From positions 62,001 through 126,000 of the IMG/VR virus record IMGVR_UViG_3300022074_000006: a DNA stretch of 64,000 nt. The stretch is one strand, 5' to 3'. Both the position numbers and the translations under genes were made by a program. Origin of the DNA: a virus. This document shows positions 1-56,061 of this stretch, in pieces. The notes under the pieces are model-generated. The model did no database searches, was not told where the DNA came from, and was given only the letters and a program-made list of their open reading frames with translations. Position 1 is the first letter of the stretch. Every line of letters starts with the position of its first letter.

Positions 1-2769
1 GATCAAGTTAATCGACCCGACGGGGGTGCTTTAGAGGCCCCTGATCCTGCTGTTGCTGCAGACGGTTCCATAACAGTTGACAATTCTAGCCCTACAATAA
101 CTAACGGCACCACCATCACCATGTCTTCAACAGATCAGACAGAGATCGTGTACGTGATAGACACGGGCCAGTCAAACACAGGACACAAAAACGGGTTAGG
201 ACAGGTCGTGATTGGATTGAACGGTGGTCCTAACGCAAATGCAATAGCATCAAAAATCCAAAAAGCAATACTGTCAGGCAATGGGCACAATGGAAAGATA
301 AGAGCAGAATTAAGCAACAACGTAGTGACGTTGACTCAGCAAGCAAAGGGTGCAGCAGGCAATGGATCGATTGTAATTGCAGGAGATACTGACAGCCTTC
401 TGACTCCGTCTAATTTTACTAACGGTTTTACAGGAGAAGATGTTGTCATACTCCACAAGAAGAAGTCTGATGCGTCTTTCAAAGAAATCTACAGAATAGA
501 CATTGCAACTCTTAAGACGCCCAATCAGAATGAGTGGAAAAAGGTTGAGTTTGATATATCGGGTGATCTTATTGACGAAGACTATGAGGTTAAAATAGCA
601 CAGTCTGCACCTTCCAGTGACAATCATGATCATCTTATTGTTCATGACGCTAAAATTACTCTAGAAACATTGCCTGAAGACTCTACTGTCAAACTTCCCT
701 ATGCATACTCTCCTAGAGAAGATTTCACTATGTCATTCTGGATAAAGCCTAAAATAGTAGGCAGAGACAAAAATGGAGGATATAAGGCAGGCACAGTTTT
801 GCACTTGTCCAGCTCTTACGCAATATCAGTCCTGTCAGGAAGCTCAGTCGACGGTTTCGGCAGATCAGATAAGTTTAGATTGATGTTCCAGTTTGATACG
901 AGTGCCAACATTGCACCTTCTAAAGTCCCTCTTAAAAAGTACGCTAGAAGCGATTCTGAGCATGATCCTGCTTTGTGGAGTGTAGGAAGTAACTTTAAAA
1001 ACGGTGAGTATCCAAGGGACGGAAGAGTTATCACGAACTCTTTAGTTTGGAAAGATGATGCCGATCTTATATTCTTGTCGTCTGACAATGCACTTTCCGG
1101 AGATACGTGGCATCACGTCGCCGTAAGATGGTCTGCCCACAAGAACAATAGGTCAGGATCGATCTATATAGACGGAGAGCTGGATTCTACTTTTCACATA
1201 AACTCTGGCTCCGCAATGCCGAGGTCAATGCCCGATTCGAGAGGCGATCCATCTGTTCTTTTTGTTGGTAACTACTTTGACGGCAGGAATGACGGTGACG
1301 AAGGCATGCTCATGAGTCAGTTTTTCAACGGGAATGCATCGTACCAGGAAGGGCTACCGCTTGCTTTCAAAGCAGTGGAAAACGCCATTCCAAACTATCA
1401 GATTGACAACTTTTTGTATAGAGACCCAAGTGACAGCCTTTATGAGCTGGATCATCCTCTCAAGGCTGAAATTCATGAGGTCAAGCTATACAATAAGTTT
1501 AAAAATCAGCTAGAAATTAAATCAGGAATGTCAAAACAGATTGATTTCCCAGATCAGGGTTTGATATTTTATCTTCCTGTGTTTTTTACACCTGAGACTC
1601 CAACTAGAGATATCATGCAAACCCCGTTCCAAACGTTCAGGTCTACGACAAACGATCCGTTCAACGTAGCACTATCATTTGGAGTAGGAGGAAAAACAAT
1701 GAACTTGCCTAACTTCTTAAGAGAGCACGTTCAAAAGAATTATCCGAGACTCTTAAATTTGACTGCTAGTGCTATTACCACAACAGACACTAAGTCTAGG
1801 ACAGCAGATGAATGGTTAGGATCAGTTCCAGCTCATAGAAAAGGTAACTACACAATACTTCCATGTGACAATGGACTTTTTCGTCCGACGTATTCCTCCA
1901 TAATAACCGGCTCTCAAACTACTAAAGTACGGACTGGATCGATCAACTACGTCTATAGAGACGACAACAATTATCTTAGAAACGGCTTGATTAGCTTGAG
2001 ATCGATGGTATCGACTGCTTCCCTTCCAATGAATCCAGGACATTTGCTTCAAGATTTAAATGCAGTTCCCGGCGGAAAAATTACGTCAGGAATGTCAGAA
2101 CAAGAAGTCGTAGATGCCCTCAACGAAAGAGAAAAGTTTATATTTAATCAGCTTGAAGGGGCAACGCCTGAAGATCCCGGAGTTGCACCAGGCTCTATTC
2201 TATCTATTCTTAATAGAACTAGAGACCCTGACTCTAATGAAGTTGTATTTTTTGACATATCAAATATGTTTTATGGGAATAGACTTAACCCAAATACAAT
2301 TAGCATAAAGGATATAGGAATGTCCGGGACACACGGGTCGGTTTCCATAACACTCAAAGATGACGGATACGGAAATATATATCGTCACGATTGTGTTTCA
2401 CCTCCTGCAAAATGGAGTAATGTAGGAGATGTGGTTTATGATGAGGGTATTATAGCAATAAAAAATCCGGTACTTTCTCACTTTGGAAGAAAGCAATTTG
2501 ACATAGAGTTTAGAGGAGAGCAAAAGGTTCCAGTCTTAGAAGTAACAGTTCCCTGTGAAAAGAATACCATAAATTCTTCTTCTAACCCCAACTATCTTCC
2601 CCTCAAGCCTTCTGGTGATGCAAATGAATATGCAGAAGACTTTGTGTATGTCACAGGGGTCAACTTACACGATGAGAACTTTAATATAGTAGGAAAAGCA
2701 ACATTTGCTCAGCCGTTAGTCAAAAGAAAATCCGATACATTTCTTGTGAAGCTTAAGATGGATTTTTAG
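1..2769 (+). CDS. LamG-containing virion protein, 5' truncated by window edge
   Basis: The frame is open from base 1, so the gene starts outside the window and the ATG at 121 is internal; 922 residues are visible. Residues about 61-150 form a small repeat-like module (pattern AxxIxxAI...GHNGKI...VTLTQ...GAAGN...FTGE) that recurs in the first tail sheath protein (25320-28913). Residues about 230-430 look like a LamG/concanavalin-A-like jelly roll: FTMSFWIKP near the start, DTWHHVAVRW in the middle, and GSIYIDGELD followed by FVGNYFDG, the usual LamG landmarks. Such domains bind carbohydrate or act as structural beta-sandwiches in phage fibres. The rest is unrecognised. It ends 1 nt into the next gene. 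Most likely a tail- or fibre-associated virion protein that contacts host glycans. The domain is fairly sure, the role is inferred. Confidence 0.7.
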   Translation, partial: DQVNRPDGGALEAPDPAVAADGSITVDNSSPTITNGTTITMSSTDQTEIVYVIDTGQSNTGHKNGLGQVVIGLNGGPNANAIASKIQKAILSGNGHNGKIRAELSNNVVTLTQQAKGAAGNGSIVIAGDTDSLLTPSNFTNGFTGEDVVILHKKKSDASFKEIYRIDIATLKTPNQNEWKKVEFDISGDLIDEDYEVKIAQSAPSSDNHDHLIVHDAKITLETLPEDSTVKLPYAYSPREDFTMSFWIKPKIVGRDKNGGYKAGTVLHLSSSYAISVLSGSSVDGFGRSDKFRLMFQFDTSANIAPSKVPLKKYARSDSEHDPALWSVGSNFKNGEYPRDGRVITNSLVWKDDADLIFLSSDNALSGDTWHHVAVRWSAHKNNRSGSIYIDGELDSTFHINSGSAMPRSMPDSRGDPSVLFVGNYFDGRNDGDEGMLMSQFFNGNASYQEGLPLAFKAVENAIPNYQIDNFLYRDPSDSLYELDHPLKAEIHEVKLYNKFKNQLEIKSGMSKQIDFPDQGLIFYLPVFFTPETPTRDIMQTPFQTFRSTTNDPFNVALSFGVGGKTMNLPNFLREHVQKNYPRLLNLTASAITTTDTKSRTADEWLGSVPAHRKGNYTILPCDNGLFRPTYSSIITGSQTTKVRTGSINYVYRDDNNYLRNGLISLRSMVSTASLPMNPGHLLQDLNAVPGGKITSGMSEQEVVDALNEREKFIFNQLEGATPEDPGVAPGSILSILNRTRDPDSNEVVFFDISNMFYGNRLNPNTISIKDIGMSGTHGSVSITLKDDGYGNIYRHDCVSPPAKWSNVGDVVYDEGIIAIKNPVLSHFGRKQFDIEFRGEQKVPVLEVTVPCEKNTINSSSNPNYLPLKPSGDANEYAEDFVYVTGVNLHDENFNIVGKATFAQPLVKRKSDTFLVKLKMDF

Positions 2770-3341
2770 TGAACATACTTGGCCTAGACGTATCAACATC
2801 AACCACAGGATGGTGTTTAACAAAATCAAAAAATAGTCAGATCTCCCTTTCACTTGCCGGATTTATACATCACAAAGGCAAGATCTCGCTCCATGAAAAA
2901 GCTCAGCAAGTCAGAAACATGATTGAAGAGGTCAACAAAACCCAAAAAATAGACTTGATCTGTATAGAAGAAAACTTACAATCATTTAGGACGGGTTTAA
3001 GCTCTGCAAGGACTTTAATGACGTTGTCTAGGTATAACGGCATAGTGTCACACGAATGCTGGCTAGCAACTGGAATCGTACCTCTTTATTATAATGTCAA
3101 CAGTGCCAGAAAGATGCTGGGAATAGATACAACAAAAAAAGCCAGGCTTCCCGGCGAAAAAGCAAAAGATGTAGTTCATAGATGGGTGAAAGCCCACCCG
3201 ATAATGAAGGACTTTGAGTGGCCAACTCGCGTCCCTACCCGAGGTATCAATAAGGGGAAGACAATAGAAGATCCTGGCTGTCTAGACCTCTCTGATGCAC
3301 TTGTCATGTCTCTGTGCGGCCAAATTGAACACTGCAAGTAG
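2769..3341 (+). CDS. RuvC-like Holliday junction resolvase
   Basis: 190 residues with a GTG start overlapping the previous stop by 1 nt. The RNase H-fold signature of RuvC-family resolvases is present: N-terminal GLDVSTSTTGW with D7, a second acidic site in CIEENLQSF (E67/E68), and a C-terminal DLSDALVMS with D173 and D176. These acidic residues would bind the two metal ions that cut four-way junctions. T4 uses the unrelated endonuclease VII (gp49), so this is a functional replacement. It heads a recombination/replication block with primase and the Mre11-Rad50 fusion. Likely role: resolving branched replicative DNA before packaging by the terminase encoded 5 kb downstream. Family assignment is strong; substrate range is inferred. 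Confidence 0.85.
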   Translation: MNILGLDVSTSTTGWCLTKSKNSQISLSLAGFIHHKGKISLHEKAQQVRNMIEEVNKTQKIDLICIEENLQSFRTGLSSARTLMTLSRYNGIVSHECWLATGIVPLYYNVNSARKMLGIDTTKKARLPGEKAKDVVHRWVKAHPIMKDFEWPTRVPTRGINKGKTIEDPGCLDLSDALVMSLCGQIEHCK

Positions 3342-3359
3342 AGCACGTAAAATAAATGT

Positions 3360-4334
3360 ATGGCTTATGTTGGCGAAAAGCTTAGTTTAATTAGGAGAGC
3401 TTTCGGAAAGTCTTTAGTCGAAAAAGACGGAGTCAATGTCAACATAAAGTGCCCGAAGTGTGGCAAGCCGGGATCTGACAAGAAAAAACTAGCGATTCAG
3501 GTAGAGACAGAACAGTTTCACTGCTGGGTTTGTGGGCTTAAGGGTTCGAGTGTTGTATATCTTTTCAGAAAATATAGGCCTTCTTTTTTAGATGAAGCTT
3601 GCAAGGTATTCAACAAGAAGAAGTTCAGCAATTTTGAAGGAAAAGCTCTAGAAGAGCCTAAAAAAGATTTAGTTAAAGACTTAGAAGGGTTCGTCATGTT
3701 AGGTGATGTTAACAACATGTCAGATCCGGATCTAAAGGACGTAGCCAGGTATGCGAAGAAGAGAGGCATAACTACATCGATGATGTGGAAGTATAGGCTT
3801 GGAGCGTGTGCTGAAGGAAGAATGAGAAGAAGGCTTCTGATACCCTCTTTTGATGTAGACGGTGAGTTAAACTATTACTCTGCAAGAGAAATAGATGGTT
3901 CTTCCAGAATGAAATATATAAACGCACCAGTTCCAAAAAAAGAGGTCATCTTTAATGAACATCTTATGGACTGGTCACTTCCTGTGACTTTAGTTGAGGG
4001 CCCTGTTGATTCTATCGTTGGAGGTGAAAACACTTTGTGTCTTCTAGGCTCACACCTTTCAACTGACTCTGAAGTTTTTAAGAAAATTGTTAAAAATAAG
4101 ACAGATGTTTACTTGGCTCTAGACTTAGATGCCCAAGATAAGGCACAGAAAATTGCAAAAGATCTTTCTTCTTTTGGTATAAATGTATACGTGATTGAAT
4201 TTAAAGATGACAAGGATGTTGCTGATATCGGAGCTGCAGCCCTTAAAGAATTAAAGAAGTCCGCGTCTAGGTGGACTTCTACGGACCGGTTACTAAAAAT
4301 GATCTCAGGAATGAGGTCTGGATCTATGATTTAG
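3360..4334 (+). CDS. DnaG-like DNA primase (zinc ribbon plus TOPRIM)
   Basis: 324 residues. A zinc-binding domain at the N-terminus carries C31-x2-C34 and C55-x2-C58 (CPKC...HCWVC), as in CHC2-type primases. A TOPRIM-type catalytic region follows, with the conserved glutamate in VEGPVDS (E213) and the DxD motif in ALDLDAQD (D255, D257). It should make RNA primers for lagging-strand synthesis with the DnaB-like helicase encoded at 51577-52959, about 48 kb away, so primase and helicase are neither fused (as in T7) nor adjacent (as in T4 61/41). The ATG at 3360 follows an AT-rich stretch with no clear Shine-Dalgarno sequence. The assignment rests on both domains and is firm; length is short compared with bacterial DnaG (about 580 aa). 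Confidence 0.88.
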   Translation: MAYVGEKLSLIRRAFGKSLVEKDGVNVNIKCPKCGKPGSDKKKLAIQVETEQFHCWVCGLKGSSVVYLFRKYRPSFLDEACKVFNKKKFSNFEGKALEEPKKDLVKDLEGFVMLGDVNNMSDPDLKDVARYAKKRGITTSMMWKYRLGACAEGRMRRRLLIPSFDVDGELNYYSAREIDGSSRMKYINAPVPKKEVIFNEHLMDWSLPVTLVEGPVDSIVGGENTLCLLGSHLSTDSEVFKKIVKNKTDVYLALDLDAQDKAQKIAKDLSSFGINVYVIEFKDDKDVADIGAAALKELKKSASRWTSTDRLLKMISGMRSGSMI

Positions 4335-4343
4335 GAGCAAAGT

Positions 4344-7300
4344 TTGAGTTTAAAATGCATTCATTTAAGTGATGTACACTGGAGAGGATTAACTCGACAC
4401 GACGAGTATAAGCGTGCTTTCGAGAAGTTTTTTAAAAAAGCAAAGTCTCTCAAGCCAAACGCGATTTTTATTGGAGGAGATATTGTTCACTCAAAGACTC
4501 AAGGGATATCTCCTGAATTGATTGACTCTCTAGTGTGGTGGTTTGGAGAAATGGCAAAAATTGCTCCGACTCACGTAATATTAGGTAACCACGATGGATT
4601 GATTCTAAACAAGGATAGACAAGACGCGATAACTCCTATTGTTAACAGCATGAACAACAAGAACATTTTCCTATATAAGAAGTCAGGTAATTATGACATC
4701 AATATTGATGGATACAAGCTGTGTGTTTTTTCTTGTTTTGATGAAGAAAACTGGGGGTTAGTCAAGCCTACTGAAGGCTACGTAAACATTGCTGCTTTTC
4801 ATGGCGGTGTGATGGGATCTGTTACAGACATAGACTGGACAATAGAGGCGGACGCTCAACTCGAGATGTTTGATAGATTTGACTTTACTTTCTTGGGTGA
4901 CATTCACAAGCTTCAATATCTAGGAAAAGAAAAGAGAATCGCTTATCCAGGAAGTACAATTCAGCAAAACTATGGCGAAGACCCAGGTAAAGGATTTTTG
5001 TTTTGGGAAATAGAAGACAGAGATAATTTTAAGTCAACCTTTTATGAAGTTCCTCATGATAGACCTTTCATGACTCTCGAGTGGTCTGGAAGCCTAGAAG
5101 AAACTTTGAAAGAAGCATCAAGCTTTCCAGAGAAGTCTAGGGTCAGAGTCAAGACAAAAATACCAATTTCACAAGGAGAAATAAAGCACCTTCACAGCGC
5201 ACTTCAGGAAAAAATGAAAGCGTCAGAGATAGTTTTCAAGCACGAATATTCTATGCCTGAATCATCTGAGTGGGAAGGATCTGAGACTATTGGAAAGAAC
5301 TTGAGAGATATCAAGACTCATCAAGAACTTTTTTCAAAGTCATTGTCCAACTCCAGCCTGGATGACAAGACTAAGGATGAAGTTAATCTTCTGCTTCACA
5401 AGTATTTCTCCCAAGCAGCTAGAGGTTCTTCTCCGAGAAACGTTTCCTGGTCGATACAAGAAATAAAATTTGATAATATGTTTACGTACGGCAAAGGAAA
5501 CCAGATAGACTTTGGGAAGCTGACGGGAATTACAGGAATATTCGGAAAGAACAGGTCCGGGAAATCTTCAATTCCTGGAACGATTATGTTTGCCCTTTTT
5601 AACGGAACAGATCGTGGAGCAATAAAGAATCTACATGTCATAAACATGAGAAAGGGATACTGCTTAGTGTCTGCTAAGATTACTGCAAACGGCAGAAATT
5701 ATCTGATTGAAAGACAAGCAGTAAGAAAAACGGCAAGAGACGGGTCGGAGAATGCAACGACTCACTTAAATATAAGCGAGATTGATTCTGACGGTAACAT
5801 TCTCAAGGACTTGAATGGTGAACAAAGAAGAGAAACAGAAAAGATCTTACGTAAAATCGTAGGAGGTCCAGAAGATTTTCTGATGACATCTTTGGCATCT
5901 CAAGGAGACATGTCGACATTCATAAAAATGAAATCGACTCAGAGAAGATCTATTTTGGCCAAGTTTCTAGACTTGAATATCTTTGAAGATATGCACAGCC
6001 TAGCAAGAACAGACTCTCTTGAACTGAAAGGAAAACTATCTGCTGTTCCTGATAGGAATTGGACAGAAGTTATCGAAGAGAAGAAAGCGCTTGTTGTCGA
6101 AAACTTAGAAAAAAGAAAAACGTTAGAGGAAAAACTTAAGAAAAAGAGAGAAAGCCTAGATGAAGTAAAAATAACTTTTGCGACTTTTGCTGATAAAGAC
6201 CTTGTAACACCTGAAGAACTTAGTTCGTTTGAAGAAAAGCTTGAAAACTTAGAGGTAGAAAGAACTGAGACAACTCATGACGTTGAAAAGCATGAGAGCG
6301 AAATAAGTGTAATAGCTAAAAAGCTTGAAGTAATCGAAAGAATTAAGAGTCAGTTTCCCATACAAAACATCACTGACGCACTTAAAGATCAGCAGTCAAC
6401 AGAAGGACAAATAATTGCAGTTGAAGCAAAGCTTGACAAAGAAAAGTCCATGGCTAAGCGGAAAGAAAAATCGATTAAGATACTCGACGATGTTCCGTGC
6501 GGAGATCAATTTCCAACTTGTAAGTTTATAAAAGAATCTCATTTAGACAAAAAGAGAATAGAGAAGCAAAAAAAATTGATCGAAGAAGTCAAGGAAGAAT
6601 TGAAAGCTCTGAGGTCTTCCCTAAGATCACTTAGAAAGAGAGGCCTTGAGGAGAAGATAGAAAAATACAATGAGATCATGCTTCAAGAGACTTCCCTAGA
6701 GAGAGAAATGGGTGAGAAGAAAGTTTCCCTTAATAATTCTCAAAACCTCAAGGACTCTCTAGAGTACAGAACTACTACTTTAAAATCTGACATTCAAAAT
6801 ATGAAACTAAGAGTGTCAAACACAGACGAAGCCAATCGGGTCAAAAGATGCAGAGAAACTATCCTCTCTTTAGAAGAAGAGATCTCTAGAATTGACGCTG
6901 AGAGAATAAGCTGTGCTGAAAGAATATCCCGAGAAGAGTCTGACATAGAAAAACTCAAGGAAGAAAAAGAAAAATATTCTGGGCTCATAAGAGACTGGCG
7001 TGCATATGATTTCTTCACAACATCAGTTTCCAATAAGGGAATACCGATGGCAATTATTGCTGATAGGTTGCCGATCATCAACAACGAAATTGCAAAAATA
7101 CTTCAGGGAGTCACAGGATTCACTGTTGAGCTAGATGCACCTGAAGGCTCAAATGCGATGGAGGTATATATTAACTATGGAGATTCTCGCAGAATAATAG
7201 AGTGTGCTAGCGGTATGGAGAAGCTAATGGCTTCTTTGGCAATTAGAGTCGCCTTGATCAACATAAGTAGTTTACCGAAAACAAACATGTTGATTATAGA

Positions 7301-7481
7301 TGAAGGTTTCGGAGCTTTGGATGACATGAACGTCGAATCATGCAGTCGACTTCTAGAGTCTTTGAAAAAGTGGTTTAAGAATATTATAATAATATCGCAT
7401 GTTGATGCTGTCAAAGATGTGGCTGACAACACGCTAGAGATTGTTAAAAACGGTAAAGACTCGTTAGTGAAAAATGTCTAA
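4344..7481 (+). CDS. Fused Mre11-Rad50 (gp47-gp46/SbcD-SbcC) recombination nuclease-ATPase
   Basis: 1045 residues from a TTG start with GGAG at 4334-4337. The N-terminal third is a Mre11/SbcD metallophosphoesterase: D10-x-H12 (SDVHW), D46 (GGDIVHS), N82-H83-D84 (GNHDG), H153 (FHGG) and D186-x-H188 (GDIHK). From about residue 375 it becomes a Rad50/SbcC ATPase: Walker A at 401-408 (GKNRSGKS), long Lys/Glu-rich coiled coils at about 560-900, an apex with C719-x6-C726 in place of the usual CxxC zinc hook, ABC signature at S956-G957, Walker B at D986-E987 and an H-loop (ISHVD). In T4 and bacteria these are two polypeptides. It would resect DNA ends for UvsX-driven recombination-dependent replication. 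No frameshift is needed to join the halves; the frame is continuous. Confidence 0.93.
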   Translation: MSLKCIHLSDVHWRGLTRHDEYKRAFEKFFKKAKSLKPNAIFIGGDIVHSKTQGISPELIDSLVWWFGEMAKIAPTHVILGNHDGLILNKDRQDAITPIVNSMNNKNIFLYKKSGNYDINIDGYKLCVFSCFDEENWGLVKPTEGYVNIAAFHGGVMGSVTDIDWTIEADAQLEMFDRFDFTFLGDIHKLQYLGKEKRIAYPGSTIQQNYGEDPGKGFLFWEIEDRDNFKSTFYEVPHDRPFMTLEWSGSLEETLKEASSFPEKSRVRVKTKIPISQGEIKHLHSALQEKMKASEIVFKHEYSMPESSEWEGSETIGKNLRDIKTHQELFSKSLSNSSLDDKTKDEVNLLLHKYFSQAARGSSPRNVSWSIQEIKFDNMFTYGKGNQIDFGKLTGITGIFGKNRSGKSSIPGTIMFALFNGTDRGAIKNLHVINMRKGYCLVSAKITANGRNYLIERQAVRKTARDGSENATTHLNISEIDSDGNILKDLNGEQRRETEKILRKIVGGPEDFLMTSLASQGDMSTFIKMKSTQRRSILAKFLDLNIFEDMHSLARTDSLELKGKLSAVPDRNWTEVIEEKKALVVENLEKRKTLEEKLKKKRESLDEVKITFATFADKDLVTPEELSSFEEKLENLEVERTETTHDVEKHESEISVIAKKLEVIERIKSQFPIQNITDALKDQQSTEGQIIAVEAKLDKEKSMAKRKEKSIKILDDVPCGDQFPTCKFIKESHLDKKRIEKQKKLIEEVKEELKALRSSLRSLRKRGLEEKIEKYNEIMLQETSLEREMGEKKVSLNNSQNLKDSLEYRTTTLKSDIQNMKLRVSNTDEANRVKRCRETILSLEEEISRIDAERISCAERISREESDIEKLKEEKEKYSGLIRDWRAYDFFTTSVSNKGIPMAIIADRLPIINNEIAKILQGVTGFTVELDAPEGSNAMEVYINYGDSRRIIECASGMEKLMASLAIRVALINISSLPKTNMLIIDEGFGALDDMNVESCSRLLESLKKWFKNIIIISHVDAVKDVADNTLEIVKNGKDSLVKNV

Positions 7482-7647
7482 GAAGATGAGAATAATAGTG
7501 GTCAGAAGCTCTGATCTAGAAATGATTGATTGCCCAAGGTGTGGATTTGCAGTTAGAGATCTCGAGGACATGAATGAGTGCAGAAGGTCAGGAATGTGCT
7601 CAGACTGTAAAATGAATCCAACAAATACAAAAAAAGATAATAATTAG
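7474..7647 (+). CDS. Small zinc-ribbon protein (57 aa)
   Basis: A 57-residue frame starting at the ATG that overlaps the end of the Mre11-Rad50 gene by 8 nt and ending TAG at 7645-7647. It has two cysteine pairs, C20-x2-C23 (DCPRCGF) and C42-x2-C45 (MCSDCK), spaced like a rubredoxin-type zinc ribbon, with C36 between them. The overlap suggests translational coupling to the fusion gene. Small ribbons like this in phages often bind nucleic acid or host proteins, but nothing here shows which. The cysteine spacing and tight packing make it a real gene; its function is unknown. Confidence 0.65.
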   Translation: MSKKMRIIVVRSSDLEMIDCPRCGFAVRDLEDMNECRRSGMCSDCKMNPTNTKKDNN

Positions 7648-7664
7648 TTTATAGGAGAAAAACC

Positions 7665-8045
7665 ATGTTGTCAGTAGAAGAAGTAAATGCACTAGGAAAT
7701 ATCTTGAACTCCACTTTTGGTAAAAGTGGTAATAGAGGAGAAACAAGATCTTTGACAGGATCGATAGAGGGAAACACACTAATCTTAAAATTCCTGTCAG
7801 TAGTTCAGTTTGCTTCTGAGTCAAGCCTGCGTGAACAAACAGATAGAATTGCAGAAGAAAGCGTAAAGCTTCTCGCCGAGGCTGTCACCAACATCAAGAA
7901 GCAATTCAAGGAAGCAACAGGAAAAACTTTGAAAGTCAAAGAGGACGGCTCTTCTGATAGTGTAGAAGTAGTTTCAGGATCCGTGCATTCACCAAGAAAA
8001 ATTGCATACTACAGGAGAACACACACACTTTCTATAAAAGAGTAG
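7665..8045 (+). CDS. Conserved-looking hypothetical protein upstream of terminase
   Basis: 126 residues with a good ribosome binding site (AGGAG at about 7652) before ATG 7665. The sequence is soluble and mixed alpha/beta: an N-terminal helix (VEEVNALGNIL), a Ser/Gly/Arg-rich loop, a strand-like GNTLILKFLSVVQF, a long helix of about 40 residues (residues 50-90) and a basic C-terminus (KIAYYRRTHTL). No catalytic motif or membrane segment is visible. It lies directly before the large terminase gene with only 4 nt between, the place where T4-like phages put the small terminase subunit gp16. It does not show the long central coiled coil I would expect of gp16, so I only note the position. Confidence 0.6.
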   Translation: MLSVEEVNALGNILNSTFGKSGNRGETRSLTGSIEGNTLILKFLSVVQFASESSLREQTDRIAEESVKLLAEAVTNIKKQFKEATGKTLKVKEDGSSDSVEVVSGSVHSPRKIAYYRRTHTLSIKE

Positions 8046-8049
8046 TTCT

Positions 8050-9642
8050 GTGTCATTAACTTCCAAGCGTGCCCAAGTAAAAGAAATAGTTCGGTGTGGA
8101 AAAGATCCTGTCTATTTTTTCAACAGATATCTGAAAATACAGCATCCAACCAAAGGGTCAATACCTTTTAAGACATTCCCGTTTCAAGATGACTGTGTGA
8201 GTGACTTTGTAGACCACCGTTTTAACATAATTTTGAAATCTAGACAGCTAGGCATATCTACAATAACAGCAGCTTATGCAGTCTGGCTAGCATGTTTCTA
8301 CAAGGACAAGAACATACTGGTCATAGCAACTAAATTAGCTGTTGCTCAAAACTTTATCAAAAAAGTTAAGACAGCTATTAGAAGCATGCCTGAATGGCTC
8401 TTGATGTCAGAGATTATTGGCAACAACAAACAGACTGTCGAGTTTAGTAATGGATCTACAATAAAGGCAGTTCCTACTTCCGACGATGCCGGTAGATCTG
8501 AGGCACTTTCTCTTTTGATAGTAGACGAAGCCGCGTTTATTAGAAATTTTGATGAACTTTGGACTTCTTTGTATCCTACACTTTCAACTGGTGGTCGTGC
8601 AATAGTTCTTTCAACACCAAACGGAGTCGGAGGACAATATCATGACCTCTGGTTGAAGGCAGAGTCTGGTGAAAGTCTTTTTAATGCCATAAAGCTGCCT
8701 TGGGACGTACATCCTGATCATGACCAGGAATGGTTTGAAAAGGAATGTAAAAATTTCTCCAGAAAGCAGATAGCTCAAGAGCTTTTGTGCGACTTTGCAG
8801 CTTCGGGTGAGACATTCTTAAATCATTCCGACATTGAACACATTGGTGCAAGAATCAAGACACCTATAGAGAAGTGGGGACCAGGCATGGGCGTGTGGAC
8901 TTGGAAGTACCCCCTGACAGAGCACAAATATATTGTAAGTGCTGACGTCGCGAGAGGAGATGCAGCAGACTATTCAGCTTTTCATGTAATTGACGTTGAT
9001 GAGTCAGAAATTGTAGCTGAGTTTAAAGGAAAAATTCCACCTGATGAATTTGCAATTCTTTTAAACGAAGTGGGAAGAAGATACTCAGACGCACTTCTAT
9101 GCCCTGAAAACAACACGTATGGATATGCACTAGTAATGAAACTCTGTGAACTCGGTTATAAAAATTTGTACTACCAGAATCCTAAGGATAAGATTTCTGC
9201 TATGTACGGTCTAAGCGATGTTCCAATAAGCAAGATAGGATTTACAACGTCAGGCCAGTCAAGAAATCAGATTCTTACAAAACTAGAACAGGTAATCAGA
9301 AACAAGGAAATTACAATATACTCTAGTCGATTATACGAAGAACTAAAGACGTTCATGTGGAAAGGTAATAAAGCTCAGGCACAAAAAGGAAAAAACGATG
9401 ACTTAGTAATGTCTTTAGCAATTGGAGTGTGGCTTTATGAGACTTCACCTGTTGCAAGTAGATCGACTCATGATCTCAACAAGGAAATGCTAAAGGCATT
9501 TGGTGTCAACGGTTCTAATGCAAAGGATACCAGCCTTTCTCCTTTTCATCACAAGGCTTACAACCCGTTCAAAAGGTACAAAAGCGAAGCTGTTCCGTTT
9601 GCTAGTGGGTCTGCAATGTCAGATTTTGGATGGCTTATTTAA
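8050..9642 (+). CDS. Terminase large subunit (gp17-like)
   Basis: 530 residues from a GTG start. The ATPase half has the deviant Walker A of T4-type terminases, KSRQLGIST at residues 63-71, and Walker B LLIVDEAA with D159-E160. The C-terminal RNase H-like nuclease has acidic residues D299 (SADVARGD), E353 (CPENNTYG) and D450/D451 (KNDDLVMSL). The protein docks on the portal encoded just downstream, pumps DNA into the prohead and cuts the concatemer. In T4 the motif reads SRQLGKT; here the lysine position is Ile and an upstream lysine (K63) is available, a variant common in terminases of this type. T4 gp17 is 610 aa, so this is a shorter form. Confidence 0.93.
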   Translation: MSLTSKRAQVKEIVRCGKDPVYFFNRYLKIQHPTKGSIPFKTFPFQDDCVSDFVDHRFNIILKSRQLGISTITAAYAVWLACFYKDKNILVIATKLAVAQNFIKKVKTAIRSMPEWLLMSEIIGNNKQTVEFSNGSTIKAVPTSDDAGRSEALSLLIVDEAAFIRNFDELWTSLYPTLSTGGRAIVLSTPNGVGGQYHDLWLKAESGESLFNAIKLPWDVHPDHDQEWFEKECKNFSRKQIAQELLCDFAASGETFLNHSDIEHIGARIKTPIEKWGPGMGVWTWKYPLTEHKYIVSADVARGDAADYSAFHVIDVDESEIVAEFKGKIPPDEFAILLNEVGRRYSDALLCPENNTYGYALVMKLCELGYKNLYYQNPKDKISAMYGLSDVPISKIGFTTSGQSRNQILTKLEQVIRNKEITIYSSRLYEELKTFMWKGNKAQAQKGKNDDLVMSLAIGVWLYETSPVASRSTHDLNKEMLKAFGVNGSNAKDTSLSPFHHKAYNPFKRYKSEAVPFASGSAMSDFGWLI

Positions 9643-9659
9643 TATAGACATCGACTAGA

Positions 9660-9665
9660 TATAAT
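9660..9665 (+). promoter_or_regulatory. Possible -10 box (TATAAT) before the portal gene
   Basis: A perfect TATAAT lies in the 46-nt gap between terminase and portal genes, 24 nt before the portal start and upstream of its ribosome binding site (GGGAG at about 9678). No convincing -35 box is seen, so the call is weak. Confidence 0.3.
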
Positions 9666-9688
9666 TAGTATGTATTGGGAGACATCAC

Positions 9689-11692
9689 ATGTCAGATAAT
9701 AATAAAGTACCAGGTCTTTTCAACAGATTGACATCACTCTTTAGGGGAGGCCCTACTGTTCGCAGAAGAATAAGAGCAACACAAGACAATCAAGAAAAAG
9801 GATTGACAACTGGTCAACTTCTTTTTAGAAGGTCAAACAGCGATACCTATAACGCAACTTTGTCCTCTTATGGGTCTTTCGATAGGATGTCACGATATAG
9901 CGACTTTGGTGAAATGGAATCGACACCTGAGATCGCATCTGCTCTAGACATATACGCGGAAGAGTCTGTTTCACCCGACGTTTCTGGTAGAATTCTTCAT
10001 ATTCACTCTGACAATAGAAAAATTCAAGAAATTTTAGAGACACTATTTTTTGACACCTTGAATCTAGACTTTAATCTTCCGATGTGGGTAAGGAATCTCT
10101 GCAAGTATGGTGACTTCTTTTTGTTTAACGACGTTTCGACAGAATACGGAGTTGTGAATGCATATCCCATACCCATCTCAGAAATAGAAAGAGAAGAGGG
10201 TTTTGACGGGACCGACCCTAACGCTGTCCGTTTTAGATGGTTAACTCAGGGGAACAAAGTTCTAGAAAACTGGCAAGTTTCACACTTTAGACTTTTAGGC
10301 AACGATGCATTTTTACCATACGGATCTTCCGTTTTGGAATCGGCCAGAAGAATCTGGAGGCAGCTTATTCTGATCGAAGATGCAATGCTCGTTTATAGAG
10401 TGATTAGGTCGCCTGAAAGAAGAGTGTTCTACATAGACGTCGGCAACGTCCCTCCAGAAGAGATTAGCAACTACGTGGAGCAGGCAAAAACTGCCCTGAA
10501 GCGAAATCAAATAGTTGATTCAGCAACTGGAAGAGTTGACATTAGATACAATCCGATGAGTGTCGACGAAGATTACTTCATACCTGTTCGAGGAGGAGAA
10601 TCCGGAACCCGGGTTGAATCTATTGCAGGCGGTACTAATACATCAGCAATAGAAGATGTTGAGTACATTCAGAAGAAGCTTTTCGCTGCTCTAAAGATAC
10701 CCAAAGCCTATCTCGGCTATGATGAAGATGTTGGAGCAAAAGCAACCCTGGCCCAAGAAGATATCAGGTTTAGTAGAACTATTCACAGAGTTCAAAAGAC
10801 GGTCATTGCTGAGCTTAACAAAATAGCAATGATTCATTTGTTCTCCCACGGATATCAAAGTGAAGACTTGTTAGACTTTGACCTTAAGCTAGCAAATCCG
10901 TCGTCAATAGCACAACAGCAAAAGCTTGAACTGATACGATCGAAGTTCGAGATAGCAGGAACTGCTCCTGAAGGGCTAGTTGATAGATCATGGATTAGAA
11001 AAAACGTCTTAGAATTAAATGATGATCAAATTGAGACTATAGAGCGAGGGAAAATAGAGGACAAAAAGACAGATCTAGCTCTAGAGGCTGTTACGTCTGA
11101 AGAGCCTGATGAGGCTGCCGCAGGAGATGAAGGCGGTGCCGAAGAAGAGCCTGCAGCTGAAGAAGGGGGAGATGATGAAGATCTCTTTTCGTCAGACAAG
11201 GTCGATGGCGACGTTCTAGACGGTCTTCCGGTTCACGCTCAAAAAAATTCCAAAGCAAATAAAGACAAAAAAGGTGAAGAAGGCCTGGATAAGCTTTCGA
11301 TAGATGACGAAGATGCTCCCATCAAAGCAACTAATGTCATAAAAAATGCTTTTGGAGAACCCATCAATAATCCAAAGAGGTATCGGACTAGTGACTTACA
11401 CATGCCAGACTTTGGAAAGATGGTGTCTGTGTCAAAGTCTAAAGCAAGGCCGCAAGATTCTATGCTCAAGCCGTATGGTCCTGACGATGTTCTAGAAGGG
11501 CCTTTTGATAGATGGGAAAGAAAGATTGAAAAGTCTTCCATGATGACTCCTGACATGAAGCAAGCCCTCAAACAAATGAATAGAGCTATGGATATACCGA
11601 GAGAAAGCATACTTACAGAAGGAGAGGGCCCTATATCTATAGTTGAAGTCCTGCTAGGGGATGAAATTGTTGAAAATGGTGACGAAGATTAA
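9689..11692 (+). CDS. Portal vertex protein (gp20-like)
   Basis: 667 residues, ATG preceded by GGGAG. Features of T4-type portals are present: a Ser/Arg-rich N-terminus, the EMESTPEIASALDIYAEE helix at about residues 75-92, the clip/stem region, and KLFAALKIPKAYLGYDED near residue 340, a block typical of myoviral portals. It forms the dodecameric ring through which DNA enters and the neck attaches. It is longer than T4 gp20 (524 aa). The extra length is a C-terminal acidic, low-complexity stretch (about 470-500, rich in Glu, Ala, Gly and Asp) followed by a charged tail. Position between terminase and prohead protease supports the call. Confidence 0.88.
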   Translation: MSDNNKVPGLFNRLTSLFRGGPTVRRRIRATQDNQEKGLTTGQLLFRRSNSDTYNATLSSYGSFDRMSRYSDFGEMESTPEIASALDIYAEESVSPDVSGRILHIHSDNRKIQEILETLFFDTLNLDFNLPMWVRNLCKYGDFFLFNDVSTEYGVVNAYPIPISEIEREEGFDGTDPNAVRFRWLTQGNKVLENWQVSHFRLLGNDAFLPYGSSVLESARRIWRQLILIEDAMLVYRVIRSPERRVFYIDVGNVPPEEISNYVEQAKTALKRNQIVDSATGRVDIRYNPMSVDEDYFIPVRGGESGTRVESIAGGTNTSAIEDVEYIQKKLFAALKIPKAYLGYDEDVGAKATLAQEDIRFSRTIHRVQKTVIAELNKIAMIHLFSHGYQSEDLLDFDLKLANPSSIAQQQKLELIRSKFEIAGTAPEGLVDRSWIRKNVLELNDDQIETIERGKIEDKKTDLALEAVTSEEPDEAAAGDEGGAEEEPAAEEGGDDEDLFSSDKVDGDVLDGLPVHAQKNSKANKDKKGEEGLDKLSIDDEDAPIKATNVIKNAFGEPINNPKRYRTSDLHMPDFGKMVSVSKSKARPQDSMLKPYGPDDVLEGPFDRWERKIEKSSMMTPDMKQALKQMNRAMDIPRESILTEGEGPISIVEVLLGDEIVENGDED

Positions 11693-11695
11693 AAA

Positions 11696-12532
11696 ATGAC
11701 AAAAAGAACTCATAATAAAAAAAGAAACGTAGGTATCTTATACGAACTCCTGGTCAGAAAAGTTTCTGAATCGCTTATTGAAGGTGATGAAAGAAAGTCA
11801 GACCAAGCAATCGGGATTATTGAAGAATTTTTTTGCAAAGAAAGTGTGCTTCTAAAAGAGTATAGACTTTTTTCTGCTCTAACAAAAACCTACGTTGAAT
11901 CAGATCACATCGCATCAAAACTACTTGCTGAAGCTCGAAAGGGAGCACAAGATTTTGACCACAACAAGCTTGAACATGAAAAGTCTAGGCTGATCAAAAA
12001 AATCAACAAGACTTTCGATGATGATAGCTTCTTTAACAGCAAGATTCCAGAGTACAAAAAGTTTGCATCGATTCAAACGGTCCTAAATGCCTGGAGAGAA
12101 CCTGAGAAGTTTGGGCTAGGTAGGATTGCAGAATCAGAAGAGAGAGTGGTCGCTATACTAAAAGAAAAGAATCAGATAGAAGATCTTGCTGATCTAAAGA
12201 CAAAAGAAGTCAATCCACTCACGTCAAAGCTGATGCTTGAAAAATTTAACAAAAAGTTTCAAAAACTTTCAGGTTCTCAAAAAAGAATAGTTGAAACAGT
12301 TCTTTCTAAGAATTCCGAAAACTTGAAATCTGTTCTTGTCGATGAAAAAGCACAAGCTTTTCGATCACTCAAAGAACTTCAGAAAGAGGATGCTAGTGAA
12401 TGGGTGGCGAAAAAAATAGAAAAGGTTCGACCTTTGATAGAATCCTTAAACCCAGAAGACACTACAGATTCTAATATACAAAAATTTATGACAGTCGCTC
12501 ACATGACTGCATTGATCGAGGAGGAAAGTTAA
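11696..12532 (+). CDS. Helical hypothetical protein between portal and prohead protease
   Basis: 278 residues starting 3 nt after the portal stop. The sequence is highly charged, Lys/Glu-rich and predicted almost entirely helical, with no Cys-rich motif, signal or membrane segment. The N-terminus is strongly basic (MTKRTHNKKRN). No recognisable family. In T4 the same interval between genes 20 and 21 holds the prohead core proteins gp67 and gp68, which are small, charged and helical. A core-assembly role is therefore plausible by position, though this protein is much longer than either. It ends 1 nt before the protease gene, so it is almost certainly co-translated with it. Confidence 0.6.
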   Translation: MTKRTHNKKRNVGILYELLVRKVSESLIEGDERKSDQAIGIIEEFFCKESVLLKEYRLFSALTKTYVESDHIASKLLAEARKGAQDFDHNKLEHEKSRLIKKINKTFDDDSFFNSKIPEYKKFASIQTVLNAWREPEKFGLGRIAESEERVVAILKEKNQIEDLADLKTKEVNPLTSKLMLEKFNKKFQKLSGSQKRIVETVLSKNSENLKSVLVDEKAQAFRSLKELQKEDASEWVAKKIEKVRPLIESLNPEDTTDSNIQKFMTVAHMTALIEEES

Positions 12533-12533
12533 A

Positions 12534-13133
12534 ATGAAGCTATTGACTGAATGGTCACCTTTTGAATACTCCAATGACATGATTAACGAGTCAAAAGAGC
12601 GAAACGACGGAAAAATTATCATGAAGGGGGTTTTGCAAAAAGCAGACACTCTAAATCAGAACAAGAGAATATACCCGCAAGCCATCTTAGAAAGAGAGGT
12701 CAGAAACTATCAGAAGTTCATAGCAGAAAATAGAGCTTTGGGAGAATGTGATCACCCCCAGACATCAGTCGTTGAGCTTAAAAATGCATCTCATATAATC
12801 AGAGAGGCTCACATGGAAGGCGGGGTTGTCTACGGAACTGTTGAGCTTCTCAACACACCTGCAGGCAAAATATTGCAAAGTTTAGTCGAGTCTGGCGTCA
12901 CCCTTGGAATATCTTCTAGAGGTGTGGGATCAACTAGAAGAGACGGCGACTACGATGTTGTCCAAGATGATTTTCAACTAATCTGCTGGGACTTTGTTTC
13001 AGAGCCTAGTACTCCTGGTGCTTTTATGATGTCAGAGGGAAAGTCAGTATCTTCTGAAGATCTTAATAGACACTTTAACAAGACAGACAAGATAGATAGA
13101 GTTTTTAATGAAATTCTAGATTGGGAGAAATAA
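12534..13133 (+). CDS. Prohead maturation protease (gp21-like)
   Basis: 199 residues, ATG preceded by GAGGAGG. It matches the T4 gp21 serine-protease fold: RIYPQAILEREV (about 45-56), the catalytic histidine in GECDHP (H74), and the GISSRGVGS block with the catalytic serine (S127 or S128). T4 gp21 assembles inside the prohead core and cuts head proteins after (L/I)xE motifs before DNA entry. The substrates would be the scaffold (15533) and major capsid protein (17221), which has a suitable L-K-E site at residues 57-59. Length is close to T4 gp21 (212 aa). A confident assignment. Confidence 0.9.
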   Translation: MKLLTEWSPFEYSNDMINESKERNDGKIIMKGVLQKADTLNQNKRIYPQAILEREVRNYQKFIAENRALGECDHPQTSVVELKNASHIIREAHMEGGVVYGTVELLNTPAGKILQSLVESGVTLGISSRGVGSTRRDGDYDVVQDDFQLICWDFVSEPSTPGAFMMSEGKSVSSEDLNRHFNKTDKIDRVFNEILDWEK

Positions 13134-13136
13134 GAG

Positions 13137-13598
13137 ATGGGCTATCTTCAAAATGCTAAACCGGGCATCGGAGCTGTGGGCGAATATCAAGCCGCAGGTC
13201 GTCCATGGGTGAGGTTAGTAACAGTACCGGCTGGAGCCGACTTAACAAATACAGCAGCGAACGCAGACGTCAACGAGTTTAAGGTGGAATTTCCGGCTGT
13301 CACAAGAAGAGTGATTGTTAGGAACACTTCCGGTGGTACGGCGAACGTTCATTTTGCCAGCTTGGCTACGACAGATGATGGTGCAGTAGCAGCAGGCAAC
13401 AACAGTGCTGTTAAAAAAGGAAAAAATTACATCCAGCTCACAACAGGAAAAGAAATCAGCATGGATATCAAGTGCAGGTTCATTTTCTTGTCAAAAGTTG
13501 GTGCAGACGCAATTGACGTTGAAGTTATTGCTGAGCTAACAAATATACAAGAACCTTATGATCTCAACAAGAGAGGTCTGGAGGGTATAACCAAATGA
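13137..13598 (+). CDS. Probable virion structural protein, beta-rich
   Basis: 153 residues, ATG 3 nt after the protease stop. Gly/Ala/Thr-rich with alternating hydrophobics suggesting an all-beta fold (RPWVRLVTVPAG, FPAVTRRVIVRNTSGG, ISMDIKCRFIFLSK). No enzyme motif. The composition resembles small capsid decoration or head structural proteins, and the gene lies inside the head module. The next gene starts at its stop codon (ATGA overlap). I do not recognise the family; decoration or vertex-associated protein is the best guess. Confidence 0.6.
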   Translation: MGYLQNAKPGIGAVGEYQAAGRPWVRLVTVPAGADLTNTAANADVNEFKVEFPAVTRRVIVRNTSGGTANVHFASLATTDDGAVAAGNNSAVKKGKNYIQLTTGKEISMDIKCRFIFLSKVGADAIDVEVIAELTNIQEPYDLNKRGLEGITK

Positions 13599-14032
13599 GC
13601 AAGCCTAAGATTTCTAGAAGTGCTCTCAAAGCTGTCATCAAAGAGTGCTTGGTTGAGATCCTTGCAGAAGGGATAGGCTCAGAAAAGGCTTCAAGTCAAC
13701 TCAAGAAAAGCCGAACATCTACAGTCTCGAGAAAGAAGCCCGTCAAAAATCAGGCAAGAAACCTTTCTGAGAGAAGAGAAGTTCAAAACGATTCTTTCGA
13801 CAGCGCTGTGAAAAGAACGGCTTCTTCATTGACGTCTGATCCAGTGATGGCAGCTATATTTGAAGAAACAGCAAGAACTACACTTCAAGAACAAAAAGAG
13901 AATGCACCTCCTGTAGTTGCTGACAACAGATCACCTTTGCAAGATAGCAATTCTGGGTCTGAGTTGACAGAAATGTTTGAAGGATCTTCCAACTGGGCAA
14001 CTCTTGCATTTACTGAAAAGAAAACTGTCTAA
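13595..14032 (+). CDS. Small basic prohead-associated protein with targeting-like N-terminus
   Basis: 145 residues, ATGA overlap with the previous gene. An amphipathic N-terminal helix, SALKAVIKECLVEILAEG, contains several (L/I)xE tripeptides of the kind gp21 cuts. The middle is basic and Ser/Arg/Lys-rich (about residues 30-70), the C-terminal half is acidic and polar. In T4, internal head proteins carry a short N-terminal capsid-targeting sequence removed by gp21 after an IxE or LxE site. The resemblance and the location between protease and scaffold suggest a core or internal head protein. No homologue recognised; function inferred. Confidence 0.55.
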   Translation: MSKPKISRSALKAVIKECLVEILAEGIGSEKASSQLKKSRTSTVSRKKPVKNQARNLSERREVQNDSFDSAVKRTASSLTSDPVMAAIFEETARTTLQEQKENAPPVVADNRSPLQDSNSGSELTEMFEGSSNWATLAFTEKKTV

Positions 14033-14043
14033 ATTTTAAGTTT

Positions 14044-14056
14044 CATCATATTTAAT
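14044..14056 (+). promoter_or_regulatory. Putative phage promoter motif (CATCATATTTAAT)
   Basis: A 13-nt string that recurs exactly at 15496-15508. Each copy lies about 25-35 nt before the ribosome binding site or start of a head gene. It contains ATATTTA, the core of a motif (ATAYTTA) seen before about ten genes in this window. Candidate late promoter; weak without transcript data. Confidence 0.4.
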
Positions 14057-14091
14057 CATTGATCCATAATTTTCCGACAAGGAGTGAAAAA

Positions 14092-14373
14092 ATGGCAAAA
14101 TTCAAAAAACTAACGCCTGCAATTCTTAAAAAGATCATTCTAGAAGAAAAAGAGGCACTAATAAACGAGTCTGATCCGATAGCACAGGGTGTTGAAGATC
14201 CTGCTAAGGTCGACGCAGAAGAGGTTGATGCTAGCGAGCAAGCTACTTCTTTGGAGAAAGACATTGACTTCATCAAAGCTCTCAAGATAGAAGAGCAGAA
14301 GACAACTCGTTATCTAAAGAAGATCCAGGAGGCGAAAACACTTATTTCAAATCGTCTTCTCACTAAGATTTAA
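14092..14373 (+). CDS. Small charged prohead-associated protein
   Basis: 93 residues. I place the start at ATG 14092, 5-7 nt after AAGGAG (14079-14084); a longer frame from TTG 14059 has no such site. The N-terminal helix (LTPAILKKIILEEKEALINES) is amphipathic and contains I-L-E and I-N-E tripeptides, resembling the N-termini of the proteins at 13595 and 48347. The rest is acidic, then helical with Lys/Glu. Likely a prohead core component by position between protease and scaffold; no family recognised. Confidence 0.6.
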   Translation: MAKFKKLTPAILKKIILEEKEALINESDPIAQGVEDPAKVDAEEVDASEQATSLEKDIDFIKALKIEEQKTTRYLKKIQEAKTLISNRLLTKI

Positions 14374-14396
14374 TCAGCTAAAGAAAGGAGAATAAG

Positions 14397-14867
14397 ATGG
14401 CTGTCAAAGGAACCAAGGACCCACAGATAGTTATAGGAGTCCCGAAGACTGTAAGGGACAAGGGATCTGCACCTAATGGTGTGTCTAAAAGTGACACTCA
14501 AACAATGCAATCAATTTACGGTAATTCTCCTATTCATGCAGAAAGAATTACTGACGAATCTGTCAAGGCCATGCTGCAAGAAGAGTTAAATAAGTTTACA
14601 TACACGGATGCACCTAGCTATGAAGATGTGCCTACAGGTGGCGGTGGTTTGCCAGCAAGCCCTTTCACCCCGAACCCATCATCTTCACCATCAGGCAAGC
14701 CTGAAGACCAGCCAGCTGCACCAGACGGATACGGATCTGAGCCAACGTCTGAAGGTTACGGTATCGGACCATCACACAATGGAACTTCTAGAAATCCGGG
14801 TACATCATCTACACGCGTAGCTAGAACTATCGGAGAATTGGTCAAGGGTGTAGGAAGCGCTGGATAA
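14397..14867 (+). CDS. Hypothetical Pro/Gly/Ser-rich head-module protein
   Basis: 156 residues, ATG preceded by AAAGGAG. The first 75 residues are of ordinary composition with a short helix (DESVKAMLQEELNKF). Residues about 78-140 are low-complexity and disordered, rich in Gly, Pro, Ser and Thr (TGGGGLPASPF, PSSSPSGKPED). The C-terminus returns to a short helix. It belongs to the run of small genes between prohead protease and scaffold. No recognisable family or catalytic motif; possibly a flexible virion or core protein. Confidence 0.55.
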   Translation: MAVKGTKDPQIVIGVPKTVRDKGSAPNGVSKSDTQTMQSIYGNSPIHAERITDESVKAMLQEELNKFTYTDAPSYEDVPTGGGGLPASPFTPNPSSSPSGKPEDQPAAPDGYGSEPTSEGYGIGPSHNGTSRNPGTSSTRVARTIGELVKGVGSAG

Positions 14868-14959
14868 TCCAGATCGCTAAACTCTTAAAGACTAAATTGT
14901 CATACTTCAAATTACCACGCCTCAATTTTGCACCACAAACAACGGGATCGGAAATTTAA

Positions 14960-15454
14960 ATGAGTTTTCGGTCCCTACCTTTCGATTCTATGTCCGACAA
15001 AGGATATGGAAACATGGGAAAGATTCAGAAGCAAAGAAATGCAGGGGATTCTTACCCATACCAAGAGCCCGTAAGTCATCACGAAGATGATGATTTAGAT
15101 CCTGAAATCAAAAAGAAAGTAAGAAAAAAGTCAGGTAACGGTACACAAAAGACTGACTTTTACGCTGATCTCGGTACTGATAAGTTTTACTTTGTCGGCG
15201 GAAATACTAAACTAATAGATTGTTTTATAAATCCAGGTGAAGTCTTGAAAGAAGTCGTGTCATATGCGAGAATGTTTGGATCAGTTCCAAAGATGTATAA
15301 AGGAAAGAAAGTTGCAGGAGGTGCCACATTCCCGGGCGGTGTAGGCAACTTTAGAGGCATCGGAATGAAGTCTGGGTTCGCTTCAGCGCCCCCTCCTTTT
15401 GATGAAGACTTTTTGCAAAGAAGTGAAGAAGAAGACGAAGAAGAACAAGACTAA
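14960..15454 (+). CDS. Hypothetical head-module protein with acidic tail
   Basis: 164 residues after a 92-nt gap in which I see no gene or hairpin. The N-terminal 55 residues are polar and disordered, then a basic patch (KKKVRKKSG) precedes a folded centre (KFYFVGGNTKLIDCFINPGEVLK, about residues 75-97, is the most structured part). A Gly-rich loop and a strongly acidic C-terminus (last 12 residues almost all Glu/Asp) follow. No family recognised. The acidic tail recalls prohead core proteins. Ribosome binding site is weak (CGGAAA). Confidence 0.5.
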   Translation: MSFRSLPFDSMSDKGYGNMGKIQKQRNAGDSYPYQEPVSHHEDDDLDPEIKKKVRKKSGNGTQKTDFYADLGTDKFYFVGGNTKLIDCFINPGEVLKEVVSYARMFGSVPKMYKGKKVAGGATFPGGVGNFRGIGMKSGFASAPPPFDEDFLQRSEEEDEEEQD

Positions 15455-15495
15455 GTTTAAAAACCGGGAAAAGGGTGCAGAAAACTGTAATTTTG

Positions 15496-15508
15496 CATCA
15501 TATTTAAT
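15496..15508 (+). promoter_or_regulatory. Putative phage promoter motif (second CATCATATTTAAT)
   Basis: Exact 13-nt repeat of the element at 14044-14056, placed 25 nt before ATG 15533 of the scaffold gene and upstream of its AAGGTGG ribosome binding site. See the note on the ATAYTTA motif. Confidence 0.4.
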
Positions 15509-15532
15509 TGTTGAACTCTAGAAGGTGGTGAA

Positions 15533-17176: not shown

Positions 17177-17220
17177 GTCCATTTAACACACAACGACATT
17201 AACATTAAGGAGTTTTTAAA

Positions 17221-19095: not shown

Positions 19096-19122
19096 GTTCA
19101 AAGATCTTAAAGATCAAAATTT

Positions 19123-19150
19123 GGGGCAGCTTCGGCTGCCCCTTTTTTTT
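19123..19150 (+). terminator. Strong rho-independent terminator after the capsid gene
   Basis: Perfect 8-bp stem GGGGCAGC / GCTGCCCC with a TTCG tetraloop followed by eight T. It lies 28 nt after the capsid stop codon and ends the head transcription unit. Confidence 0.95.
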
Positions 19151-19171
19151 TATATTTGTTCTTTTGCGTTA

Positions 19172-19178
19172 ATATTTA
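19172..19178 (+). promoter_or_regulatory. Putative promoter motif (ATATTTA)
   Basis: Copy of the recurring ATAYTTA motif, 22 nt downstream of the terminator and 18 nt before ATG 19196. A promoter is expected here because the preceding terminator isolates the next gene. Confidence 0.35.
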
Positions 19179-19195
19179 AAGACCAGGAGGTTAAC

Positions 19196-45973: not shown

Positions 45974-46023
45974 AAAGTCACAAGTCTTGAACATTTATAT
46001 TGACGCGTCTACATTTTATACCT

Positions 46024-51562: not shown

Positions 51563-51576
51563 GAAAGATAAATTTG

Positions 51577-55458: not shown

Positions 55459-56061
55459 ATGATACACAAAGTAACTGTTTCACCTCTCATCAAAGAAGTC
55501 GAACTTAGAAAAAATCCTGTCATCTCCAGAGTTAATGAGTTTACTGAAGACTCTGCCAAAAAATTTCATGCGGAGGTTGCACAGGCTCACAGTACAGGTC
55601 AGAAAGTTTTGCCTGTTGTTATTGACTCTTATGGAGGTCAAGTTTACAGTCTTATGTCCATGATAGGTGCAATCAAACATTCAGAAATCTCCGTTGCAAC
55701 CATCGTTGAAGGAAAAGCGATGAGTTGTGGGGCTATTCTGTTCTCTTTTGGTGAAGAAGGCTTGAGGTTCATGGATCCAAATGCAACAGTCATGATTCAC
55801 GACGTAAGTTCTATGGATTGGGGTAAGGTTGAGGAGCTAAAAGCAGGCGCTGCAGAAGCTGACCGGTTGAACAAGAAAATCTACACAATGATGGCTCGAA
55901 ATTGCGGCAAGAAAGATGACTACTTCATGAAGATTGTTGACAAGAAAAAGCACGCTGATTGGTTTCTTGATGCCGAAGAGGCAAAGAAGCACGACCTAGC
56001 AAACCAGCTTAGACTTCCTAAAATGACAATAGAAGTTGCTGTAGATATTGAACTAGAGTAA
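55459..56061 (+). CDS. ClpP-like serine protease
   Basis: 200 residues. The ClpP fold is clear: VVIDSYGGQVYSLMSMIGAI (about 53-72), the nucleophile block GKAMSCGAILFS with S89, NATVMIHDVS with H114, and WFLDAEEAKKHDLAN with D166 just before it as the likely triad aspartate. No ATPase partner gene is in view, so it may use the host ClpX/ClpA or act alone. The head-maturation role belongs to gp21 here, so this protease probably acts on host or fibre proteins. It lies between NrdJ and the fibre genes. AAAGGA is somewhat far from the ATG. Confidence 0.88.
   Translation: MIHKVTVSPLIKEVELRKNPVISRVNEFTEDSAKKFHAEVAQAHSTGQKVLPVVIDSYGGQVYSLMSMIGAIKHSEISVATIVEGKAMSCGAILFSFGEEGLRFMDPNATVMIHDVSSMDWGKVEELKAGAAEADRLNKKIYTMMARNCGKKDDYFMKIVDKKKHADWFLDAEEAKKHDLANQLRLPKMTIEVAVDIELE

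Follow-up and report, generated by a model that had tools for sequence, protein, structure and literature searches.

The window, the whole stretch of 64,000 nucleotides analysed here, carries a real fusion: one chain in which an Mre11/SbcD nuclease is followed by a complete Rad50/SbcC ATPase, encoded by a large, uncultured T4-like tailed phage. ORF analysis finds a single uninterrupted frame of 1045 codons at window 4344-7481 (plus strand, as are its domains, the neighbouring genes and the recombination genes placed below), with a TTG start and an AGGAG at 4333-4337, 6 nt ahead of it; the gene begins at base 66,344 of the virus record of 133,292 bases. From the frame, domains, conserved active residues, gene order and partner genes, all of them observed, we infer the activity, architecture and role of the product. 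With a probability of about 0.8, it is a functional single-chain Mre11-Rad50 (SbcDC) that forms M2R2 from two chains and serves the phage in a gp46/gp47-like role.

Domain searches recognize both halves of the protein. Pfam Metallophos lies at residues 4-155 (8.1e-10) and the SbcD-like phrog_100 at residues 1-288 (9.9e-26), and the SbcC-like phrog_77 extends across the remainder after residue 288 (5.1e-60); Pfam SMC_N and SbcC_Walker_B appear weakly, under their cut-offs. The solved structures matched by the sequence are Rad50/SbcC and Mre11/SbcD chains. These Pfam and PHROG domains, together with homologues sharing the same full frame, bear out the sequence-only reading, which had proposed a single-chain Mre11-Rad50. 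An AlphaFold2 model of the single chain (mean pLDDT 81.8) displays, in order, a nuclease, a capping domain, two helices, a linker and a Rad50 fold with coiled coil; with a pTM of 0.49 and a single-chain model only, the relative placement of the nuclease and ATPase halves is not fixed. Foldseek matches of the model in the PDB are Rad50, SbcC, Mre11, SbcD and other SMC-type chains.

The nuclease domain spans residues ~1-235 (4344-5048), as delineated by Metallophos, phrog_100, invariance and the model, and the Metallophos fold contains the metal-site motifs D-x-H, GD, GNH[D/E], H and a final x-H, all present and invariant. A capping domain is predicted at residues ~238-300 (5055-5243) from the AlphaFold2 secondary structure and from the folds of SbcD/Mre11 chains that have one. 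After a low-confidence stretch at residues 303-313, two predicted helices (323-334 and 341-358; 5310-5417) form the putative C-terminal Rad50-binding helix-loop-helix of Mre11, a role taken from PMC3175470. The model and the alignment place the linker at residues 359-368 (5418-5447). Its length of 10 residues, shared by 97 of the 100 distinct full-length fused proteins, is as expected from the gap of ~28 Å, or 9-12 residues, computed for the T. maritima complex (PMC3175470). An internal start that would release free Rad50 was considered and rejected: the linker has no start codon, and ATGs found at 379 and 415 fall within the ATPase domain.

Sequence, model and alignment define the Rad50/SbcC N-lobe (5448-5975), with Walker A GKNRSGKS at 401-408 and Q520. 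The modelled coiled coil (5976-7028) has arms at ~545-716 and ~727-895 and an apex at 717-726, followed by the C-lobe (7029-7478), where sequence and alignment show the signature SGMEK (956-960), Walker B LIIDE (983-987), D993 and H1019. Walker A, Q-loop, signature and Walker B are thus all present, and the two ABC lobes are parted by the coiled coil.

Homologues were gathered from protein scans and profile scans; counting the window and three phage records as well, the set comprised 131 loci. The complete fused frame is found in 117 of these, representing 100 distinct sequences, as some contigs were fetched twice. Ten of the remaining 14 end at contig ends (L049 and nine IMG/VR loci: L028, L034-L037, L039, L040, L042 and L095). 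L050, from a WOR-3 bacterium MAG, is interrupted by runs of N, lacks a complete frame and was left out, and L051, a Paenibacillus gene, matches part of the ATPase only. The last two, L003 and L106, are broken in the nuclease domain near residue 194, away from the fusion junction. In L003 (LR756508, a 484-kb phage) an insert at 2656-3573 splits the fused gene near residue 194-199 and has an ORF with a TnsA-like endonuclease domain; a search for an intron in this insertion gave no Rfam match at the gathering threshold, nor any credible one below it. L106 has a stop codon (897-899) at almost the same site, in an extra loop, dividing the frame into two ORFs. Matches from MAGs (Halobacteriovorax, Methylococcaceae and others) may stem from phage contigs placed in bacterial bins; one such locus, L044, coincides in extent and range with the viral contig of L029.

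T4, E. coli and a cyanophage all have the SbcD and SbcC genes as neighbours in one and the same order, so an artefactual join is conceivable, a lost stop, a base error or a chimeric contig wrongly merging two neighbours. We regard this as vanishingly improbable and reject it on independent homologues: the same frame recurs in 117 loci, the linker length is near-constant, and cultured phages annotate one single CDS. The worry over an assembly join, raised in the sequence-only reading, is thereby excluded, and homologues always split at the Mre11-Rad50 junction, which it had named as grounds against a fusion, did not appear, none of the 131 loci being split there.

All residues singled out by the sequence-only reading were found where it placed them. 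The eight metal-site positions of the nuclease (D10, H12, D46, N82, H83, H153, D186 and H188) show no variation in the 100 distinct full-length proteins; equally fixed in this set are Asn, Gly and Lys of Walker A, Ser, Gly and Glu of the signature and Asp-Glu of Walker B. Since the identity of these proteins to the window protein is only 21-76%, the invariance indicates that both halves are under strong constraint. The claim that all metal ligands are there holds for the presence and invariance of the eight positions; residue 186, however, is Asp instead of the His of G-H-x-H found in E. coli SbcD and in the majority of split SbcD proteins from phages. The last metal motif reads G-D-I-H in the window protein, with Asp at the equivalent position in 100/100 aligned full-length fused proteins, whereas the split comparators show G-H-x-H in nine cases out of ten. 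The claim of an altered hook also stands: C719-x6-C726, within the apex VPCGDQFPTC (6492-6521; sequence, model and alignment), replaces the canonical CxxC zinc hook. C-x6-C is kept in 96 of the 100 fused proteins, against three with CxxC and one with another apex; among split comparators, 9/10 have CxxC and 1/10 neither motif. The exchange of a metal-binding His for Asp, combined with the altered hook, suggests that activity and bridging could differ from those of SbcCD. We tentatively propose, at somewhat less than even odds, that the C-x6-C apex, conserved as it is, serves as a non-canonical hook, whether as a zinc site of different geometry or as a redox-sensitive disulfide joint, which would make the protein a differently regulated DNA-tethering single-chain Mre11-Rad50 in this lineage.

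A more drastic view would have the fused protein repurposed, the Asp and the C-x6-C apex marking mainly an ATP-driven DNA tether or an endonuclease rather than a resecting exonuclease. Asp at 186 throughout the fused set, the altered apex in 96/100 and the same Asp substitution in Mimivirus R555 (PMC3175470) fit such a change. Nevertheless, the remaining metal-site residues are all retained, some fused relatives keep the CxxC hook, and the substitution does not follow the fusion strictly, as the split phage protein of VspSw1 has G-D-L-H and the fused PAU protein G-H-I-H. Asp is, moreover, able to bind metal. On balance, repurposing seems unlikely.

The surroundings of the gene follow a conserved order of RuvC-like gene, primase, fusion, small ORF, terminase and portal. 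In the window these include a RuvC-like Holliday junction resolvase (2769-3341), a DNA primase (3360-4334), a small ORF with no assigned function (7665-8045) and a T4-type terminase large subunit (8050-9642). Among 111 distinct loci, 104 have the terminase downstream, 87 the primase upstream and 72 the RuvC-like gene upstream, many of these loci being too short to show every gene. Elsewhere the window holds a T4-style recombination set: a single-strand DNA-binding protein (SSB, 48622-49416), a UvsX-like recombinase (49431-50609), a 5'-3' exonuclease (50606-51562) and a DnaB-like replicative helicase (51526-52959). No second Metallophos or SbcC-like gene was found in the 133,292-base record, itself possibly a fragment, so that another copy elsewhere is conceivable. 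In 14 other fusion-bearing records, which may also be fragments, strong SbcC-type matches beyond the fused gene occur only in a 735-kb phage, which has a separate SbcC-like gene; several of these records have further small Metallophos proteins.

Several other genes of this phage were recorded alongside. At window 46000-47202 lies a 400-aa family-A DNA polymerase (Pfam DNA_pol_A, 3.4e-13) with motif C as LHDA; no exonuclease domain was detected in this ORF, and tblastn at 1e-5 gave no match to it in 50,697 phage records. Tandem tail-sheath genes occupy 25320-28913 and 28964-32149, each encoding more than 1000 aa, and a ClpP-like protease gene (55459-56061) is distinct from the T4-type prohead protease at 12534-13133. 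Beyond the window, a glycosyltransferase cluster with UDP-GlcNAc 2-epimerase and carbamoyltransferase is seen in L150 (G000 bases 1-20000).

The single chain, the lack of any locus split at the junction among those collected and the 10-residue linker in 97/100 make a two-chain M2R2 assembly plausible. Two chains would pair through their Mre11 domains and ATP-bound Rad50 heads, forming an M2R2 head of the usual kind; in each, the helix-loop-helix would dock in cis on the coiled-coil root of its own chain, the linker connecting it to the Rad50 N-lobe. Judging by genomic context, the most likely role in infection is end processing for recombination-dependent replication, as for T4 gp46/gp47: DNA ends would be cleared and resected, and the processed ends would let UvsX, SSB and the resolvase drive recombination-dependent replication and repair. 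Degradation of host DNA might be a further role, and the T4 record states that gp46/gp47 are needed for it as well as for recombination. That host breakdown is the main job, in place of replication and recombination of the phage genome, we find very improbable, given that the conserved site beside primase and RuvC-like genes, and the UvsX/SSB/helicase set elsewhere in the window, suit the latter; the two roles are in any case not exclusive.

Relatives of the gene are common in environmental tailed phages and rare in cultured ones, with at least 592 confirmed IMG/VR loci from the profile scan (of these at least 592 relatives, fused or not, the best 80 were read) against a handful of 50,697 phage records. 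In those records only Microcystis phage Mel-JY01 and the uncultured LR756508 match the window protein in both its halves; LR756501 and LR756503 give matches over 50% of its length. The fused protein of the 735-kb phage as query adds Tenacibaculum phages pT24, PTm1 and PTm5, Chryseobacterium phages MA9V-1 and MA9V-2 and Sphingomonas phage PAU; in pT24, PTm1, MA9V-1 and PAU the fused genes are single CDSs of ~1300 codons. The fusion is conserved across a broad phage lineage. With the divergent fused relative L027 as query, no full-length fused copy was found in plasmids, although PMC3175470 reports plasmid fusions. Two trees of 22 fused and 10 split proteins, one for the nuclease and one for the ATPase lobes, both place the fused set on one side of a branch, with support of 94/95 (nuclease, not starred) and 99/98 (ATPase lobes). 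Because the trees have few comparators and several long branches, and include neither R555 nor the other 2011 fusions, they leave standing the 2011 authors' view of several fusion events (PMC3175470). The best viral fold matches are giant-virus proteins, 970-1390 residues long and carrying annotations as DNA repair proteins or exonucleases; Tupanvirus (2.6e-54) comes ahead of pT24 (1.2e-42).

The fusion extends a kind first described in 2011 and is not a new kind. Yoshida, Claverie and Ogata reported Mimivirus R555 and twelve further Mre11/Rad50 fusions, from bacteria, plasmids, eukaryotes and Bacillus phage 0305phi8-36 besides Mimivirus, and their paper already gives the domain order, argues from the linker and notes the Asp substitution (PMC3175470). 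The earlier statement that T4 and cellular systems use two genes therefore applies to canonical systems, but not generally, in view of these published fusions and the full-length matches in giant-virus models and cultured phages. The 2011 authors also suggested that the abundant GOS and BIOME relatives are phage-borne, having phage-like primases on the same scaffolds (PMC3175470). Our loci add whole genes and flanks to that suggestion and support it for the environmental R555 relatives, the fused gene lying, in many contigs of tailed phages, within a conserved block of RuvC, primase, fusion and terminase. A natural single chain of 1045 residues fixes 1:1 stoichiometry and could ease structural and biochemical work, and the C-x6-C apex offers a natural hook variant for comparison with CxxC.

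E. coli SbcCD shares the folds and motifs of the window protein, and its chains are among the fold matches, but it is encoded by two genes, with a CPLC hook, G-H-x-H and a 1048-aa SbcC with a longer coiled coil. T4 gp47/gp46 and the SbcD/SbcC of a T4-like cyanophage correspond to both enzymes, are transcribed in the same order and belong to phages whose recombination is of the UvsX type; they differ in having two genes with small ORFs between, a CPTC hook, G-H-x-H and a shorter ATPase subunit (560 aa in T4). In pT24, PTm1, MA9V-1 and PAU, one CDS likewise encodes an Mre11-type and then a Rad50-type domain, and in each of the two trees the proteins join the clade of the window protein. Their annotations read metallo-phosphoesterase, DNA repair or gp288. 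They are unlike the window protein in their length (~1300 aa) and CxxC hook, and are just 23-24% identical to the 735-kb phage protein, the query that found them. The R555 type is also close. As in the fusions of PMC3175470, both domains lie in one chain, Mre11 first, with a linker within ~9-12 residues; R555 shares the domain order, the capping and helix-loop-helix regions, the short linker and Asp in place of the His equivalent to P. furiosus H206, and environmental relatives of its type abound in viral fractions and share their scaffolds with phage-like primases (PMC3175470). The C-x6-C apex may be a point of difference. In contrast to R555, which has 1351 aa, the window protein has 1045 aa, and its type is represented by full-length genes in contigs of tailed phages, together with terminase and portal genes of the T4 type.
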